IMG/VR virus record: IMGVR_UViG_3300006927_000068
Coordinates: 1 to 25,805 of that record
DNA length: 25,805 nt
Reading direction: 5' to 3' (one strand)
Source: a virus
Position numbers and translations under genes: made by a program. Within the stretch, counting starts at the first letter, position 1. The number at the start of each line of letters is the position of its first letter. This document shows positions 663 through 24,016 of the stretch, one piece after another. The notes under the pieces are model-generated. The model ran no database searches. It saw only the letters and a list, made by a program, of their open reading frames with translations, and was not told the DNA's origin.

Positions 663-3210
663 TAAGTCCTCCGTCTGTCAAAACCTTCATGATGGCTCGA
701 AGCTCATCCTTGTTTCCTACCCGAGACCTTGATCCAGATGCAGCTGGGATGGGAAAGGTCTTCTGTTGGAGGTGGTTAGCTATGAGTTCCCTAAGCGCTA
801 GAGTACCACCCCCAGGACCAGTTCCGAATAGAGTATCCCGAATATTCTTGTCGGCAAAGCCGGCCTTCTTCAATATCCGTACAACAGAGTTCATAACCGA
901 AATATCTCTGGTCTTGGATGTCTGTAGTTGCGCAACCTCAGTCGCTTTGTAGAGGAATTCGCGCCACTTGACGTAGCTCCTAAAAGACTCATCAATCTTC
1001 GCAGCTCTGGTCTCCCATTCGTGATCCCCAGGACTAATACGCTGGGCCAGATGCAGCTGGGATGCGGTTGGATCGAGGAACGAGGAGAGCGGCCGGCCGC
1101 CGGACTGTCGAAGTTCAACAAGTTCTAGTACCCCTGTTTCTATATCTGCCCAGTTCATACTGACCCGCTCTGCTATTTGAGCCAATCCCTGAAGGGCGCT
1201 TCTATACTGCTCAGTCCATAGACTACTGGCTACAGTGTTCTCATGAGAGCCATCAACAATCTCCCTGACCTCTATGCGGCGGAGATTCTGGCGAATCACC
1301 TTCCACAATCTAGACCTAGATGCTCTTGAGGGAGTCCTGTTTGCGGCATTCAATGCGTGGAAGACCTTAGAAGGAGTGCCGTTCAGAGCTTCTGGTTCGT
1401 CAGCAAAGAACTTTGCGGTCCCTGTGGGCTGGTTTGTTTTGTAGGATAGAGCTCGGTCAATAGCAGATATGAATGAGTCTGATCCTAGACCGTCTACAGC
1501 GCCGCGCACTCGTTGATACTCCTCGACTGACTGTTCAGTAATCTGCTCAATTATTCTCAGCTCCTCATCAGTCGGCCTACGGATCACAACCCCCTCTCGA
1601 CCGCTCTTAGTCAAGAATATCTCATACTCATGATGGAAAGATTGAGACTTACCATATCCAATGGGATCCAACTGGCGCAAAAGCTCCTGATCGAAGGCGC
1701 CATAATCAGAGGGTTTCAAATTAATAATTTGGCCTTGCGTCACCGCAGGGAGTTCCACAATCAGAACATGCTTAAGGGCATCTCCCTGACCAAAATTCGT
1801 CGTGGATACATCTGGTGCACCAGATACTGAAGAGCCCGGTATGTTCAACTCGTAACTATGGCCTTTTGTGAGTCCCTCCTCTTGAACCTGAGACGCCGCG
1901 AGAGTCCCGTGATAAAGTTCTTGAGTCCTCCCTCTCCCCCGCATTCTACGACCAGCCTGCAACTCATGGGCTGGATCCCCCTTCCGCTGAGCACGAGTCA
2001 GCTTCACACCGGGGCGCGTACGGGTTTTGTTAAACTTCTGAGCTGAAGTCAAGGCATCTTTCTGATTATGGGTAAAGCTTCTACTAAATTTAAGCCGGGC
2101 TGTCGTAGCGTCCTCGGGATCAAACTGGAGATCGGGGAAATTAGAGAAGAATTGATCAAGCGCCTCAGTCATTTGGGGGCTACCTAGCTGGGCTAACCCA
2201 AAATGACGAGATTCTCCAACCATACTTGTGTTCATTACAGCCGCGGCCTTCACCAATGGCAGTGCAACATCTCCATGAACAGAGGGCATATCCTTTATCA
2301 TGTCTACTGCGGTTTTTAGTCGAGCATTGTTACTCGCTAGGAGGTCCAAAACCTCTGAATGCTCCATTTGAGCCGCATACAGGTCCATGAGATTTACGTT
2401 CAAACTTGTAGAGACTTGATGAGCAAAAGCATCATCACTACTAAACTTATTGAGAGCCGCACCCTTATGGGATTGCCCCATAGTTATAACCTTAGCAAGA
2501 CTTGGCCCATCAAATAGTACACTCTTACCCGTAGACCCAGCCCGAGCTTTGGACATGATGTGGGCTATTTGTAACGAACTTCTTAAATCAGGGGCGGGAA
2601 TCTTCACAGACAGGAACTCGTGGTCATCTTCTTGATAGGTTAGTTTTGTTACATAGTCAGTCATGCCCTGACCAGGAATTTCTATATTGATAGTGGGAAG
2701 CTTTAAGTGAAGCCACCCAGACTTAGGATCAAATGAAGAGGTATCAAAAAGTATAGTATCCTTCTCTCCTTCATTACTTCGAGGAACTATATTAGCCCTA
2801 TATCCCTGGGTCTTTAGAGTGTTCGTCAACCCCACGACACCCTGACCCATAGAAACTCCAGGATCAAAGTCTATGAGCCCTTGTGTCTTCTGCTCAGGAT
2901 CAGCCCCAGGAGCCCCTATAGGGTCTGCAGGATCTACAACCTGTCCAACAGGTACTGTTCCAGGTGGCCCACCTTGAATGAGACCCACAGGTGCGGGAAA
3001 TTGCATCTGATTGAACGGCACAGATGTAGTACCGGGATTGGTTAGTCTGGTGTTTTGCAGCACTGTAACGCCGGGCGTCTTGAATTGAGCAACGGCTTGC
3101 CGCAACGACTGGGGACTCAATCCTCCCGCTCCCCCACCGCTCCCCGGTCCGAGGATGCGCTTTAGTGTTGGTGGGTAACCAGGTCCGCCTCTGCCCAGAA
3201 AATCAACCAT
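649..3210 (-). CDS. Large probable virion protein with an ADP-ribosyltransferase-like domain
   Basis: 853 residues, ATG start at 3210 with AGGA seven bases upstream. The N-terminus (1-110) is Gly/Pro-rich and low complexity; 200-400 looks helical. At about 430-545 there is a pattern like an ADP-ribosyltransferase: YHGT at 433-436 followed by an helix ending EEGL, then VSTTNF at 468-473 with A478 after it, then EYEIFL at 528-533. These match the H, S/T and E elements of the ART fold seen in PARP-like and bacterial toxin families. The C-terminal 300 residues are helical and unrecognised. The gene lies two genes downstream of portal, so the product is probably packaged or head-associated, possibly injected to modify host proteins as T4 Alt is. 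The ART call is my reading of motifs; the virion role is inference from position. Confidence 0.6.
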   Translation of the reverse strand: MVDFLGRGGPGYPPTLKRILGPGSGGGAGGLSPQSLRQAVAQFKTPGVTVLQNTRLTNPGTTSVPFNQMQFPAPVGLIQGGPPGTVPVGQVVDPADPIGAPGADPEQKTQGLIDFDPGVSMGQGVVGLTNTLKTQGYRANIVPRSNEGEKDTILFDTSSFDPKSGWLHLKLPTINIEIPGQGMTDYVTKLTYQEDDHEFLSVKIPAPDLRSSLQIAHIMSKARAGSTGKSVLFDGPSLAKVITMGQSHKGAALNKFSSDDAFAHQVSTSLNVNLMDLYAAQMEHSEVLDLLASNNARLKTAVDMIKDMPSVHGDVALPLVKAAAVMNTSMVGESRHFGLAQLGSPQMTEALDQFFSNFPDLQFDPEDATTARLKFSRSFTHNQKDALTSAQKFNKTRTRPGVKLTRAQRKGDPAHELQAGRRMRGRGRTQELYHGTLAASQVQEEGLTKGHSYELNIPGSSVSGAPDVSTTNFGQGDALKHVLIVELPAVTQGQIINLKPSDYGAFDQELLRQLDPIGYGKSQSFHHEYEIFLTKSGREGVVIRRPTDEELRIIEQITEQSVEEYQRVRGAVDGLGSDSFISAIDRALSYKTNQPTGTAKFFADEPEALNGTPSKVFHALNAANRTPSRASRSRLWKVIRQNLRRIEVREIVDGSHENTVASSLWTEQYRSALQGLAQIAERVSMNWADIETGVLELVELRQSGGRPLSSFLDPTASQLHLAQRISPGDHEWETRAAKIDESFRSYVKWREFLYKATEVAQLQTSKTRDISVMNSVVRILKKAGFADKNIRDTLFGTGPGGGTLALRELIANHLQQKTFPIPAASGSRSRVGNKDELRAIMKVLTDGGLSGPN

Positions 3211-3272
3211 TATCCTAGCCCTACCCTACTACCTGGCGAAATCGTCTTCCCAAATGCTTCCATAGTATGGGA

Positions 3273-3446
3273 TCAACGACCTCGGAGCTTTCGCATCAAA
3301 TCCGTTACAGGCGTCTTACTCTTAATGGCCGCTTTCAGCTCTTTGTTGGTAGGAGGTGGCCTTAGCAGGTTTCGCTGCACCTGCTGCTCAATTTTTTCTG
3401 CGCTATCATCAAAAGCAGGTTCACGACGTTTAGGTTTATCTGTCAT
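3273..3446 (-). CDS. Small basic 57-residue protein between portal and the ART-like gene
   Basis: The frame starts MTDKPKRREPAF and ends LMRKLRGR. Its ATG at 3446 follows the portal stop with a single base between them (TAATATG), and GGTAGGA lies upstream inside the end of portal. It is highly charged, Lys/Arg-rich, with a predicted helix (DDSAEKIEQQVQRNLL). No family is recognised. The tight spacing, good ribosome-binding site and matching strand make it a likely real gene. A small scaffold or connector accessory role would fit the position but is a guess. Confidence 0.6.
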   Translation of the reverse strand: MTDKPKRREPAFDDSAEKIEQQVQRNLLRPPPTNKELKAAIKSKTPVTDLMRKLRGR

Positions 3447-3447
3447 A

Positions 3448-5418
3448 TTATCCTACCAATCCTGTTAGAGGATTACCAGCCTGATTTATCTCACTTGGGA
3501 GACTAGCATCTCCTGTGTCTTCTGCAGAGACCCTTGGAGAGCCCTCCTGCCCACCCGCAACACCAGGACCGCCGTTCAAAATTTGAGCAATCCCCGGGAT
3601 TTCGGCGGCATCAGCTTCGGCAGTCTGCTGCTCTTCCTGATCCTTCTCAAGTGAGCGTGGATCAATATTGAGGAGCTTCATCAAGGTGCTCAAGGCTTTG
3701 TTACCTGAGAAGCGTTTCATAAAGGCCTGGAATAGTAATGGATTCACTGTTACAGCCTGTAAGAGGGCCATAGATTTTTGGAAGTCCTGAGACTTCGCCA
3801 AGACTGCAGATAATCCTCGAGCAGTGAAAGAGCAAGAGGAGGCAAATTGGGCAAAGCGTTCAGGGGCACTCATCTGACTTAGAAGGAGAGCAGATCTGGT
3901 ACCAATAGCATCTACTACCATCTGACTATCGAGATCGTCGGCATTCTGCATTAGGAGCATCCAGCTCTTTCGGATGAGTTGATCTATTAAACCCGTCTCC
4001 AGATTGCCGATTATGCCATCTAATGTTACGGCCCTTGACTGTTGGGAAGCGACAATCTCTGTAGCTTTCACCTGCTTTGCCGATACCTGTCCAAGGGCGA
4101 TTTCATTGGTCAGGGCGGCTTCCTGAAACTCTCTAATCAATACTCCAAGGGTTTGTAGAGCATCCTGAGGGACTTGGCCCTCTGTGACAGTTTCCAGCAC
4201 TTTTGCATTCGCTGGCAACGTTTCATTCACCACTAAGGTGGAGCCCTGAGGAATGCCGCCCGATACGTCAGAGGAATCATCCAGTGCAAAGGCCCTCAAC
4301 TGTTTGATACCCCAAACTGCTGCTAAACCACCATCTAAGATGAGGTTGAACATCTCGTTTATGGCCAGGTTAAGAGGGCTAGCATGATCATAGATGGCTT
4401 TGTGCCATGTGCTGAAGGGGACATTGATCAAGGGATGAACAATGAAGGGGCTTTCTTGGTGCCAAAAAGGATTGTCCTCGGGTTTACGGAGTACAACCCG
4501 ATCATTGCCAATTGCCCACCTCTGATTCTTCTTAACTGCTTGGCCGTCCTCATTCAAGACAGTGCCCCAGCACTCATCTATGACAATCTTCTTACGAAAT
4601 CCTGGAGGGTCATTTTCAGATTGGCCTCTCCGCGTCTCTGCCCGTTTGTGCTCATGCTCTTTGTGGGTATCTACACCTTTGAGAGTCATTAAGGCATTTT
4701 TATCATATATACCCTGTTCAGCCAATTCCTCAGCCCGACTCCAATCTACCTCTACCCGATGAATCTCATAAAGGCCAGCTCCAGAAGGATCTTGATAGAA
4801 GTCTTCTGCAGCAATGAGGTCAACCAGCAGGCGCCAAGAGGAGAACTCTTGAGTACCAAGGGATTCGGAGGGAGGTTCGAATTCCTCTGTCTCAATATTA
4901 AACGCAGGTTCGCCACGTTCAACAAAGAACCGCCTCTCAGTCACCTGCCGGCCATGAACTTTTAGTATGATTGTTGATTCAAGAAGCCCAACCTTGGAAG
5001 CGTTGGAAAGAACGGTGTCCAGTGCGATCGTCTTCTCATCCTGTCCGGTGGGGATAGAAGAGAAGTAGCACATAAGGAGCGCCCGCACCTCCTCGGGTGC
5101 GATCGGCAACTGGACACCGCGGCCCATCTCAACCTGAAACCAATCTCCGAAGGAGGTCATTCCCCTCTGAATGAGGGCGGCAAACTGCTCTACCGAAGTA
5201 GCAACTTTGGGAACAAATTCAGCAGATTGTCCGTCTTGCTTATGAGTCCAATCTTGCAGACCCATATAAGCATCAACATTTATCTTGTTAAGCTCTAGAC
5301 GGCGCTTCCGCGCATCTTCGGCTTCTTTCTTATAGCCCAATGTGAGATTGATTAAAGAGGGGCCGTTAGGATCAGGGTGTATATCGGCACCAGGCTTCTT
5401 AGCGGCGGCTTCTACCAT
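3448..5418 (-). CDS. Portal protein (head-tail connector)
   Basis: 656 residues. The portal forms the dodecameric ring at one vertex of the head through which DNA is packaged and ejected. Portal-like features are an N-terminal segment around residues 58-105 (HKQDGQSAEFVPKVATS...FQVE), which resembles the start of P22-like and other large portals; a central region with ASPLNLAINEMFNLILDGGL; and a long helical C-terminal region with SAKQVKATEIVASQQS, similar to the stem/wing helices of portals. It follows terminase and one small gene in the same operon, the usual order. The start at 5418 lies inside the end of the zinc-ribbon gene (20-base overlap). The C-terminus is acidic and Gly-rich. The identification rests on pattern and order, not on an alignment. 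Confidence 0.85.
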   Translation of the reverse strand: MVEAAAKKPGADIHPDPNGPSLINLTLGYKKEAEDARKRRLELNKINVDAYMGLQDWTHKQDGQSAEFVPKVATSVEQFAALIQRGMTSFGDWFQVEMGRGVQLPIAPEEVRALLMCYFSSIPTGQDEKTIALDTVLSNASKVGLLESTIILKVHGRQVTERRFFVERGEPAFNIETEEFEPPSESLGTQEFSSWRLLVDLIAAEDFYQDPSGAGLYEIHRVEVDWSRAEELAEQGIYDKNALMTLKGVDTHKEHEHKRAETRRGQSENDPPGFRKKIVIDECWGTVLNEDGQAVKKNQRWAIGNDRVVLRKPEDNPFWHQESPFIVHPLINVPFSTWHKAIYDHASPLNLAINEMFNLILDGGLAAVWGIKQLRAFALDDSSDVSGGIPQGSTLVVNETLPANAKVLETVTEGQVPQDALQTLGVLIREFQEAALTNEIALGQVSAKQVKATEIVASQQSRAVTLDGIIGNLETGLIDQLIRKSWMLLMQNADDLDSQMVVDAIGTRSALLLSQMSAPERFAQFASSCSFTARGLSAVLAKSQDFQKSMALLQAVTVNPLLFQAFMKRFSGNKALSTLMKLLNIDPRSLEKDQEEQQTAEADAAEIPGIAQILNGGPGVAGGQEGSPRVSAEDTGDASLPSEINQAGNPLTGLVG

Positions 5419-19687: not shown

Positions 19688-19975
19688 ATGCCCGTACGTG
19701 ATGATGTATTACAGGAAGCCAATAAAATAGTATCTGCTGACCGAGAGGCTACTTACGGTCCCCCCAAGGAAAATTTCAAGGCGATCGGTGATCTTCAATA
19801 TTCGTACTCCAATCTTGTAGAAGATAGAGCTCCCAGTGAGGAATGGCGCACAGCTATGAATATGGCTTTGCTAAAACTCGCTCGTATTGCAACTGGGCCT
19901 CAACACAAGCGAGATAACTATATAGACGCTTGTGGGTACCTGGCACTGGCTTGTGAGTTGGCCGAAGATGACTAG
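19688..19975 (+). CDS. DUF6378-like protein
   Basis: 95 residues. ANKIVSADREATYGPPKENF near the start, then WRTAMNMALLKLARIATGPQ and RDNYIDACGYLALACELAE match the phage DUF6378 family (DReatYG.P..NF ... LKlaR ... DnyiD..GY.al). Often found beside replication and nucleotide metabolism genes. The helical arrangement suggests a small bundle like MazG, but the activity is not known. GGAGAGG is upstream. It overlaps the polymerase start by eight bases. Confidence 0.8.
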   Translation: MPVRDDVLQEANKIVSADREATYGPPKENFKAIGDLQYSYSNLVEDRAPSEEWRTAMNMALLKLARIATGPQHKRDNYIDACGYLALACELAEDD

Positions 19976-21596
19976 CCCCTTCGAAGAGGGCGACCCTGGC
20001 AGCAAAATCTGTATCATAGGGGAGGCTCCATCCCATTCTGAAATGCGTGCCCACAAGCCTTTTGTCGGCCCGGCTGGGCATGTCCTCGACCAGTGTATGC
20101 ACGCTGCAGGAATGATCCGACGCGAATGCTATCTGACCAACATCTTCGAGGAGCCTGTTACCAAGGATAAGTTGGGGGGTAAAATCTGGGACTCCGCCGG
20201 CGATCTGGTGTGGACAAACAAGGGCGGGTTCACTGCAGATGGAGAGAAGCACCTAGATAGCCTCCTTGTCAGGTTGGCAAGAAGCAAGGCTAATGTCTTT
20301 GTCCCTCTTGGGAATACAGCCCTCAGTGCCCTGACTCCCCACGCTCAGATAATGAAATGGCGAGGTTCTATCCTATCCAGTCCTGTGATTGGGAAGAAGG
20401 TGGTGGCGACAATCCACCCTGCTGCTAGCCTCCGAGGGCAGTACATCTGGCGCTATATTATTACAACAGACTTAAGGCGCGTGATTGAGGAGAGGAATTC
20501 TTCCAACCTAAACCTTCCCCAGAGAACCTTGCGGATTAATCCCTCGTTTGAGGAAGTTATATCCTATTTGAAGGAATGCCTTGAGCAGAGGGACGTAGCC
20601 CTGGATATTGAGATATTTAGGCATCAGGTGTCCTGCCTCGGGTTTGCCATTGCCCCAGATGATGCCATGTGCATACCCCTAGTAGGAACAGACAGCAAGG
20701 CTAGGTGGAGCATAGATCAGGAGATGAAGATATGGCAGTTGACCGCTCAAATTTTGAACGATCCCTCTATCCGAAAGATCAATCAGAACATCTCCTTTGA
20801 CATCTCCGTACTCTTACAACAGAATTCTATTATAACCCAGGGACGGTTAGGAGATACTATGGTAGCACAGCACCTCTTATATCCCGACTTTCCGAAGGGT
20901 TTAGACTTCATCGCATCTATCCATACAAGGGAACCTTATTGGAAAGACGACGGCGGAAAGATGTGGAAGAAGATGGACGGTGATTACCACACCTTCTGGC
21001 GATACAACGCTAAGGATGCCTGCGTAGCAATGGAGGCGTGGTATGCCCTTGAGGTGGAATTGCACGACAGGGAGTATTGGCATTCTTATCAAGAAACAAT
21101 CAAGTTGATTGATCCCCTTGTCTACATGATGACAAGAGGCTTTAAGGTTAGTATGGACGAGTTGGCTAAAACCAAGGAAGAGGTCGAAACCAAGATTGCT
21201 GAGAAAGAAGTCGATCTGTTGGAGGTGGCAGAACGGCCGTTTAATCCAAACTCTCCAAAACAGTGTATGGAGTATTTCTATGTCACAAAAGGGATCAAAC
21301 CCTACGTCAACAGGAAAACGGGTAAACCTACAACTGATGACAAAGCTATGGCACGAATTGTGCGACGCTTTAACCTCCCAGAAGCTCGTCTGGTTCAGGA
21401 AATTCGGACCCTCAAGAAACTACACGGCACCTACTTATCCGCAGATGTCGATGGAGATCACCGTATGCGCTGCTCTTATAACATCCGAGGGACAACTACA
21501 GGTCGGTTGTCCTCCTCTCAAACGATCTTCGGAACTGGCATGAACATGCAGAATATTCATCCTGAATTCAAGAGTTTCCTGGTAGCCGACGAATGA
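19968..21596 (+). CDS. DNA polymerase I family, N-terminal part: UDG-like domain, 3'-5' exonuclease and thumb
   Basis: 542 residues from the ATG at 19968 (GTG at 19932 lacks support). Residues 1-170 resemble a uracil-DNA glycosylase (IIGEAPS at 16-22, PFVGPAG 31-37, LTNIF 56-60, HPAASLR 150-156), but the Fe-S cysteines of family 4 are missing, so catalysis is doubtful. The proofreading exonuclease is complete: D213/E215 (LDIEIF), D278 (NISFDIS), Y346 and D350 (YNAKD). Then the polymerase begins (TGRLSS at 511-516, NMQNIHPEFKSFLVADE) and the frame stops just before motif A. The rest is encoded at 21937 after an HNH gene. UDG-polymerase fusions are known to me in SPO1-type phages. Confidence 0.9.
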   Translation: MTSPFEEGDPGSKICIIGEAPSHSEMRAHKPFVGPAGHVLDQCMHAAGMIRRECYLTNIFEEPVTKDKLGGKIWDSAGDLVWTNKGGFTADGEKHLDSLLVRLARSKANVFVPLGNTALSALTPHAQIMKWRGSILSSPVIGKKVVATIHPAASLRGQYIWRYIITTDLRRVIEERNSSNLNLPQRTLRINPSFEEVISYLKECLEQRDVALDIEIFRHQVSCLGFAIAPDDAMCIPLVGTDSKARWSIDQEMKIWQLTAQILNDPSIRKINQNISFDISVLLQQNSIITQGRLGDTMVAQHLLYPDFPKGLDFIASIHTREPYWKDDGGKMWKKMDGDYHTFWRYNAKDACVAMEAWYALEVELHDREYWHSYQETIKLIDPLVYMMTRGFKVSMDELAKTKEEVETKIAEKEVDLLEVAERPFNPNSPKQCMEYFYVTKGIKPYVNRKTGKPTTDDKAMARIVRRFNLPEARLVQEIRTLKKLHGTYLSADVDGDHRMRCSYNIRGTTTGRLSSSQTIFGTGMNMQNIHPEFKSFLVADE

Positions 21597-21940
21597 CCAA
21601 CACAACAGATGAAACCTTCCAAGCCCTAAACCGTCTTGAACATCTTATAGTTGAAAGGTTTGTATCTCAGCCTGTCTGGTCTATAAACGATCTAACAGCA
21701 ATGGTCCGGCAAAAGACTGAACTCATCATCAACGAAGTGACAGCAAAAAGGATGGATGCTGTACCTAAGAATCACAACTTTCGCACTAGTCGGCATCGGT
21801 CTAAGGAGACCCATTGCACCAACGGGCATGAGTACACATCTGAAAACACCGGTACAGGACATGATGGACATCGTAAGTGTTTGACCTGTTACAAAGCTCG
21901 TCTAGGTCCACACAGCAAACGGAATAAGAAAAAGTCATGA
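21593..21940 (+). CDS. HNH homing endonuclease-like gene inserted in the polymerase gene
   Basis: 115 residues. ATG overlaps the first polymerase stop (AATGA) and its stop overlaps the start of the second part (CATGA). The C-terminal half has the phage HNH pattern with zinc cysteines: C75, NGH at 77-79, N85, C96 and C99 (HCTNGHEYTSENT ... KCLTC). The N-terminus is helical and basic and may recognise DNA. The sequence is translated across its whole 343-base insertion, so there is no room for a self-splicing intron around it. It likely promotes its own spread into polymerase genes lacking it. Confidence 0.8.
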   Translation: MTNTTDETFQALNRLEHLIVERFVSQPVWSINDLTAMVRQKTELIINEVTAKRMDAVPKNHNFRTSRHRSKETHCTNGHEYTSENTGTGHDGHRKCLTCYKARLGPHSKRNKKKS

Positions 21941-22839
21941 CTCAACACATCCTAATGGAGTTTGACAAGTCTGGGGCGGAATGGGTCGTGGTGGCCTACG
22001 CCTCGGGTGATGGTCAGATGATAGATGTTGTCAAAGGTGACGAGAGTCCCCACAGCAAGACTGGTATGCTCATATCAGGCGCTCCAATTGAACTTGTTGA
22101 GATGGAGAATAAACTTGTCGAACACCACACCGATCCAGATACAATTAGGACCATTAGGAGTGAGTCACTTGCTGCGCTACTTGAAGGAGATTACTTCCTG
22201 CCTAGAAGTATGTCTATTCGACAAGCTGGGAAAAAGTCCAATCATGGTCTTAACTACGGAATGGGTTATCGACGGTTTGCGTTGGAAAATGAGATGGAGG
22301 AGCGGGATGCAAAAAGAATTGTCGATCTCTATCTCCACAGCGCCTACCCGGGAATACCCGTTTGGTGGGAGACAATCCGACAACAACTCAGAGACAATAG
22401 AACTCTAACCAACTGTTTCGGAAGGAAGAGGGAGTTCAGAGATGCCTGGGGTGACGAACTGTTCAAAGAAGCCTATGCTTTTATTCCCCAATCAACGGTT
22501 GTAGATATGGTCAACTCTGGAATGGCTAAGGCGTTTGTGCAAGGTGCTGACTATTTTGACTTGGCCGACTTATTGGCACAGGTACACGATTCAATTGTGT
22601 ATCAGTATCCCATAGATCATTTCTACGAAATGGCCTTGTTTACTATTCGTCACGCTCTCGATTATATGTCCCCAACTATTCAGTACAGCGGACGAGAGTT
22701 CCAAATTGGAACTGATCTGAAGGTTGGAAGGGACTGGGGACATATGATCCCCGTCGAGTTAAGTGAAGATGTAGATGTGATGCAACACAACCTAGAAGAA
22801 GCGTGGGACAAGTTGAATGCCTCAACGCAAGCTGGATAA
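21937..22839 (+). CDS. DNA polymerase I family, C-terminal part: palm and fingers
   Basis: 300 residues; starts MTQHILMEFDKSGAEWVVVA. Motif A: D10 in MEFDKSGAEW. Motif B (O-helix): R95, K99, Y107 in RQAGKKSNHGLNYGMG, with His103 at the position of E. coli Phe762. Motif C: QVHDSIV with D218, where HDS replaces the usual HDE. Both catalytic Asp are present. With the N-terminal part it makes one complete enzyme; the join between ...FLVADE and ILMEFD is close to that of uninterrupted relatives. Starts by translational coupling with the HNH gene and overlaps the next gene by 23 bases. Confidence 0.9.
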   Translation: MTQHILMEFDKSGAEWVVVAYASGDGQMIDVVKGDESPHSKTGMLISGAPIELVEMENKLVEHHTDPDTIRTIRSESLAALLEGDYFLPRSMSIRQAGKKSNHGLNYGMGYRRFALENEMEERDAKRIVDLYLHSAYPGIPVWWETIRQQLRDNRTLTNCFGRKREFRDAWGDELFKEAYAFIPQSTVVDMVNSGMAKAFVQGADYFDLADLLAQVHDSIVYQYPIDHFYEMALFTIRHALDYMSPTIQYSGREFQIGTDLKVGRDWGHMIPVELSEDVDVMQHNLEEAWDKLNASTQAG

Positions 22840-24016
22840 CTGGCTCAATGCTTATTTGGAATACACCGATAATTCAGAGTCGCCTCTGGCGTTTCATCTC
22901 TGGACTGCTATGGGGTGTATTGGCGCTGCCCTTCAAAGGAAAGTCTATATGCGATGGGGGCACACTGATATTTATCCTAACCAGTATGTCGTCCTTGTTG
23001 GACCTTCGGGTAGGGCACGAAAAGGGGAGGCGATTACGATTGGGAGAAGTATGGTCAAAACCCTCAACATCCCTATGCTTGGGGAGGACAACTCTCCAGA
23101 GGCGATAATCAAACAGATGGATGACTCAGCCGGAGCGTTCAAAGATGAAACAACTGGAAACATGCGAGAAATGTCCTCTATGGCGGGCTTCCTCGAAGAG
23201 TTATCTGTCTTTACCGGCGAGCAGAACAAACGCTTCTTGGCGATGCTTACTAACTGGTATGACTCGCGCGATGATTGGCAAAGACGGACTAAAAATAAGG
23301 GTATTAATGAGCTTGCTGGAATGTGTTTCAATCTGGTGGCAGCGACAGCTCCCGATTGGCTTCCCCTTATACTGCCACATGAGGCGATCGGCGGTGGCTT
23401 CACTTCAAGATGCATCTTCATCGTCGAAACTCAAAAGCGAAAGATCATCTCAAACCCAAACCTCAAGCCGCCGGACAAAGCCCTAAGGGATAGGCTCATA
23501 CACGACTTGGAAATCATACATACACTGACGGGGGAATATAAGTTCACCCCCGAAACCCTTGAACAGTATGAAAACTGGTATGTACAAGAGGAGAAGAAGA
23601 TTGAGAAGGGAGAAGGGCCGGTAAATGATCCCGCTTTTGCTGGATATATCTCAAGAAGGGCGACCCATGTTAAGAAGCTGGGGATGATAATAGCTGCTAG
23701 CCAGCACGACAGAAGGGAATTAGATTTAGATAGTTTTGAGGTTGCACTTAATTTGATGGAAAAGGCAGAGGTGGGGATGCAGAAGGTCTTTGCTGGGATT
23801 GGCAAGGCTAGGTATGCTGAGGAAAGTGAGGCATTGATTGAATTCTTGTCGGAACGTAAAAAGGTTACAAAGGCTGCCATTCTTAGGAGATTCAACAGAA
23901 CTGTGGACTCATATGTTCTAGATGCCGTAACTGAAACACTGGTAGCTATGAAAAGAGTTAGGGTTAAGATAGACAGAGAAGAGGGAGAAACATACTATGT
24001 CTACATGGAAGATTGA
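22817..24016 (+). CDS. DUF3987-like phage helicase/primase
   Basis: 399 residues. Walker A-like VLVGPSGRARKGEA at 59-72, in the G..G..RKG form used by DUF3987-type proteins, not the classic GK[ST]. Walker B region MAGFLEELSVF follows at about 120-131, and GGGFTSRCIFIVE later resembles the sensor. N-terminal WLNAYLEYTD and AFHLWTAMGCIGAAL are family-like. A C-terminal winged-helix-like segment (KVTKAAILRRFNRTVDSYVL) could bind DNA. It would unwind or prime DNA for the polymerase encoded just before. The identification is by motif recall. Confidence 0.8.
   Translation: MPQRKLDNWLNAYLEYTDNSESPLAFHLWTAMGCIGAALQRKVYMRWGHTDIYPNQYVVLVGPSGRARKGEAITIGRSMVKTLNIPMLGEDNSPEAIIKQMDDSAGAFKDETTGNMREMSSMAGFLEELSVFTGEQNKRFLAMLTNWYDSRDDWQRRTKNKGINELAGMCFNLVAATAPDWLPLILPHEAIGGGFTSRCIFIVETQKRKIISNPNLKPPDKALRDRLIHDLEIIHTLTGEYKFTPETLEQYENWYVQEEKKIEKGEGPVNDPAFAGYISRRATHVKKLGMIIAASQHDRRELDLDSFEVALNLMEKAEVGMQKVFAGIGKARYAEESEALIEFLSERKKVTKAAILRRFNRTVDSYVLDAVTETLVAMKRVRVKIDREEGETYYVYMED

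Follow-up and report, generated by a model that had tools for sequence, protein, structure and literature searches.

A UDG-type family A DNA polymerase of phages, probably maintained as two genes that flank an exchangeable cargo slot

The viral DNA of IMG/VR record IMGVR_UViG_3300006927_000068, 25,805 nucleotides long and hereafter called the window, carries a replicative UDG-PolA polymerase that is encoded as two genes within one tightly overlapped operon, with the break falling in a predicted loop just ahead of motif A. Subunit 1 would contribute the UDG-like domain, the proofreading exonuclease, the thumb and the first palm strands, and subunit 2, beginning at the catalytic motif A strand, would supply the remainder of the palm together with the fingers. 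The explanation that we favor, and consider very probable as a whole, is that of an old and stable two-gene polymerase, split throughout a clade of phages and holding between its halves a slot for exchangeable cargo; the order of events in that history is one that we infer.

The genes of the operon all lie on the plus strand and overlap, in the order DUF6378, polymerase N part, small ORF, polymerase C part and DUF3987/primase. The 3' end of the DUF6378 gene (19688..19975; Pfam DUF6378, 4e-20) shares 8 nt with the start of the gene for subunit 1 (19968..21596), a 542-aa N part with its ATG at 19968 and its stop at 21594-21596, assigned from Pfam, PHROG 17 and dN/dS. At the first join (gaATGAcc, with gaATGAc at 21591..21597) the start codon of the middle ORF lies over the N-part stop, and at the second (tcATGAct, with ATGA at 21937..21940) the C-part start lies over the stop of the middle ORF; the window sequence thereby bears out the first-pass annotation, which had described a polymerase gene in two whose joins are both ATGA overlaps. 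The middle ORF itself (21593..21940) encodes 115 aa and measures 348 nt including its stop, and not the 343 bases originally given. The gene for subunit 2 (21937..22839), assigned from Pfam, AlphaFold2, Foldseek and dN/dS, encodes a 300-aa C part with palm motif A, the fingers (motif B) and palm motif C, and its end shares 23 nt with the start of a gene identified by Pfam and PHROG as DUF3987/primase (22817..24016). N part, middle ORF and C part occupy three different frames. A sequencing error, considered at the first pass, does not account for the split, for 99.9%-identical contigs that show it too were recovered from two other metagenomes, and the break in a relative, L004, falls at the same codon; this phage shares 93% (N) and 84% (C) amino-acid identity with the window and has a different, longer insert.

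The two products together possess the UDG, exonuclease and PolA domains and the motifs A, B and C of a UDG-type phage family A polymerase (PHROG 17). Pfam detects UDG (3e-17), DNA_pol_A_exo1 (8e-8) and DNA_pol_A positions 2-131 in the N part, and DNA_pol_A positions 206-380 in the C part. The polymerase segment of the N part runs to TGRLSSS...QNIHPEFKSFLVADE and the chain ends ...FLVADE, and the C part opens MTQHILMEFDKSGAEW. When uninterrupted relatives were sought and the junction compared, as had been suggested, the break was placed between ADE and the next Gly, with hardly any residue missing relative to unsplit L104 (...FLEADEGYLMCEMDKAQAEW) and L005 (...FLLADEGCMIYNFDLSQAEN). The motif A Asp (C residue 10), motif B (R95, K99, Y107) and the motif C Asp (218) all lie in the C part and show little or no variation across 27 relatives, in line with the earlier claim that the two chains jointly keep all motifs and that the palm motifs A, B and C reside in one part. 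Modeled alone by AlphaFold2, the C part reached a pLDDT of 95.6 and a pTM of 0.89; the model opens with the strand of motif A, at residues 4-10, and a Foldseek comparison of this model with Taq/Bst Pol I gave a best E value of 7e-14. In a model of the unsplit L045 polymerase the split point corresponds to a loop (560-563) followed by the strand 564-570 with catalytic Asp570; a chain end in the loop before motif A is likely to be tolerated. The O-helix equivalent of E. coli Phe762 is a His (window 22219-22257, C residues 95-107, pattern RxxxKxxxH), which is invariant in the group alignments and falls into none of the F/Y/L classes recognized in phage PolA. At least one survey of PolA demanded R688, D705, K758 and F, L or Y at 762 in one sequence (PMC9069017); because split enzymes with His at 762 would fail this filter, phages of this kind may go unnoticed.

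A scan of IMG/VR with C parts yielded 69 loci, which were sorted with N and C profiles; the scan patterns favor one spelling of motif A, and the counts say nothing on overall frequency. Once near-copies were removed, the pre-motif-A split was found in 29 distinct contigs of viral origin, which group as a single clade (SH-aLRT 99; bootstrap 98 and SH-aLRT 96 in a second tree). No cultured members of this clade were found in the phage collection searched, and the relatives found on bacterial genome contigs were only unsplit or split at the second site described below. The gap from N stop to C start ranges from -20 nt (L035) to 2660 nt (L070), with a median of 559 and all frame relations represented; the C parts of some relatives start with GTG or TTG or at an uncertain position, and that of L084 is without a clear start codon. 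L035 has no insert, its halves overlapping by 20 nt; it is known from one contig and could be an intact gene with a one-base assembly error. The insert-free state is also seen in the cultured phage QDWS535. As part of the two-chain explanation, there is a high probability that the split is ancestral to the clade and has been stably inherited.

Both halves are under purifying selection, with dN/dS values relative to L004 of 0.066 (N) and 0.104 (C) and values of 0.04-0.19 in other sister pairs with measurable dS. The N and C distance matrices are correlated (r = 0.83, with 0 of 2000 permutations as high); nearest neighbors by N and by C coincide in only 15 of the 29 rows, so some recombination between the halves is possible. 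Twelve relatives of 32-47 kb contain no PolB, and no family A matches apart from the split halves. The contigs are metagenomic, several are incomplete and the window's genome is partial, so a second polymerase could lie in the missing part of the latter, which is the one point in favor of regarding the polymerase as a pseudogene, a degraded gene in a genome replicated by a host or other phage enzyme. Such decay is exceedingly improbable given the low dN/dS in both halves, the conserved motifs, the clade-wide retention and the lack of any other PolA or PolB in the twelve relatives. The locus has the features of a split polymerase, with complementary parts in separate ORFs, all motifs kept and conservation by selection, and the enzyme is most likely active as two chains. 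These would be produced by coupled translation and fold together without a covalent link, most likely as a stable polymerase.

Splicing of the intervening sequence, as a group I intron or a split intein, would restore one chain, and it has precedent in the group I introns of SPO1 and Bastille phages, which interrupt the same polymerase family (PMC11878797), and in the intron suggested for phage MEP401 by its authors (PMC10580990). Since nothing was found in the SPO1 polymerase region at the Rfam gathering threshold, a permissive mode was used with SPO1 as a control. This search detected the SPO1 intron core (E 4e-4) and returned no Rfam intron at the join in the window at E<=10 and none in six relatives, consistent with the initial view that the join holds no intron. 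Furthermore, the SPO1 intron lies ~35 residues upstream of the split point, near TGRLSSNEP / NAQQFPR, several inserts measure only 164-224 nt, and L035 has none. With regard to an intein, N parts end <=9 residues from the last homologous position in 27 of 29 cases, C parts start a few residues ahead of motif A, and no extra residues that could represent split-intein halves were found at the junction; because the chains end within a few residues of homologous positions, there is no room for intein halves. Splicing is accordingly highly improbable, and a polymerase of two separate chains is preferred.

The first-pass annotation had called the middle ORF an HNH gene and proposed that its homing made the split. 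The insertion of a homing endonuclease gene into the polymerase gene would be a genes-in-pieces event of a kind known from phage genes elsewhere that homing genes have split (PMC2988022), and PHROG 826/1492 do label the middle ORF as an HNH endonuclease, but the match covers the tail only. This tail is a zinc-finger-like CxxGH...CxxC module that resembles the tail of proteins of Mycobacterium phages Pound and Minerva, in which NUMOD4 and HNH_3 lie upstream. Pfam finds both domains in Pound gp50 and Minerva gp162, yet in the same test the HNH_3/NUMOD4 core is absent from the window ORF at E<=0.1 and from the L004 ORF at E<=1. As the window ORF has no detectable catalytic core, 'HNH gene' is an over-call. 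HNH PHROG matches among the insert ORFs occur only in the window and L004, and these two ORFs, in the same slot, share 44% aa identity (N 93%, C 84%), from which the middle ORF evidently evolves fast. All 29 clade members share the cut, and the two HNH-like inserts are nested within the clade among relatives whose gap is empty or occupied by lysins, ThyX, a subtilase or small ORFs. No Pfam homing-nuclease domain was found in any of 58 insert ORFs, and neither these nor the window ORF place a homing endonuclease ORF at the join. The small gene in the window's gap need not be the cause of the cut; its insertion as a homing gene is an unlikely origin of the split, and a homing element as a long-lost founder is unsupported, though conceivable. 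An HNH-like protein with three tandem CxxGH...CxxC modules is encoded in L027 (4509-5379).

The gap would rather be a slot in which ordinary phage genes came and went, with the middle gene of the window as probable cargo of this sort. The 58 insert ORFs include five GH25 lysozymes, five M15_4 peptidases, one ThyX and one S8 subtilase among others, with small ORFs and families without known function also represented. The first cargo ORF starts <=25 nt from the N stop in 27 of the 29 contigs, and the last ends near the C start in 26. Homology was not found between the window cargo ORF and the ~70-aa ORFs of sister phages. Endolysin-type genes lie between the polymerase genes in L064, L079, L083, L088, L091, L053 and L066, which puts a lysis gene inside the replication operon, and in L024 (5395-7370) the polymerase halves are separated by genes for a subtilisin-like protease and for a small protein whose start resembles a signal peptide.

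Outside the clade this arrangement appears to have arisen on at least two further occasions, as illustrated by phages MEP401 and QDWS535. The OM43 phages MEP401 and MEP402 (Zobellviridae) resemble the window in possessing a two-ORF family A polymerase with a small ORF between, and differ in having no UDG domain and in forming an independent lineage in the tree. The split of the cultured MEP401 is at the same point (...FLSRYGE / MILNADAKALEW) and was published as a possible intron, with no wider pattern described (PMC10580990). Alcaligenes phage vB_Af_QDWS535 is also split at this point, into two adjacent CDSs with a start/stop overlap (TAATG) and no insert; unlike that of the window, its N part shows no UDG domain, and the phage groups with MEP401. 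No paper was found for it in the literature searched. In L015 and L016 the break lies slightly farther upstream, and tiny ORFs separate the parts; L015 has a long branch and an unsure placement in the tree. In L016 (350-600) the N part ends strongly acidic (EEDQEELEEEYA) and the C part begins basic (MKIKIRS), which is possibly an assembly aid. Supported tree branches force three changes of pre-motif-A state, in disagreement with a common origin of the split in MEP401 and the window clade; most simply these are three gains, although counts of changes alone cannot tell gains from losses. We give an even chance to the broader proposition that family A polymerases have a natural fission point in the pre-motif-A loop, which has been used independently at least three times, and that the gap is a reused cargo slot, often for a lysin, with polymerase and lysin expression perhaps linked by the operon.

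Split polymerases are already known, as in T4-like gp43A/B (PMC2988022). The gp43A/gp43B of Aeromonas phage 25, the NrdA of phage Aeh1 and T4 gene 60 are essential enzymes that reassemble from two chains, with an inserted gene between the halves as in the window, and the phage 25 proteins co-purify and are active (PMC2988022). These are family B (T4-like PolB) or other enzymes in which homing endonucleases are present, and unlike the window clade they have no clade-wide cargo slot. The PolB of phage MIJ3 is likewise a replicative polymerase encoded by two ORFs that flank an HNH-type ORF, but a split intein is reported for it (PMC6892783), for which the window has no room. The PolA of SPO1 and Bastille phages is of the same family (PHROG 17) and, like that of the window, interrupted ahead of the catalytic motifs, but by a spliced RNA intron, at another site in SPO1. 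No earlier description of a clade-wide family A split with an exchangeable cargo slot was found in a search that took in few subscription journals, and one possibly exists elsewhere. The significance of the system lies in a replicative polymerase kept long in evolution as two chains, cut beside the catalytic aspartate. With inserts that range naturally from zero to 2.7 kb, the system opens the evolution of split enzymes to direct testing, and natural split PolA pairs are on offer for biotechnology.

In ~33 other loci the same polymerase is divided at a second site, which separates the exonuclease domain from the polymerase domain, as it also does in Caulobacter phage Kuura. This group includes L048, L050, L054, L056-L061, L063, L067-L069, L071, L073-L078 and others, as well as L033, with other sequence between the two genes. 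Probable inteins also occur, as in-frame insertions near motif B in L009 (near 3150-4043), L102 (5130-6016) and L105 (5136-6049); the edges of the L009 insertion are intein-like (CVVGSTEVLTPGG ... SVTGN).
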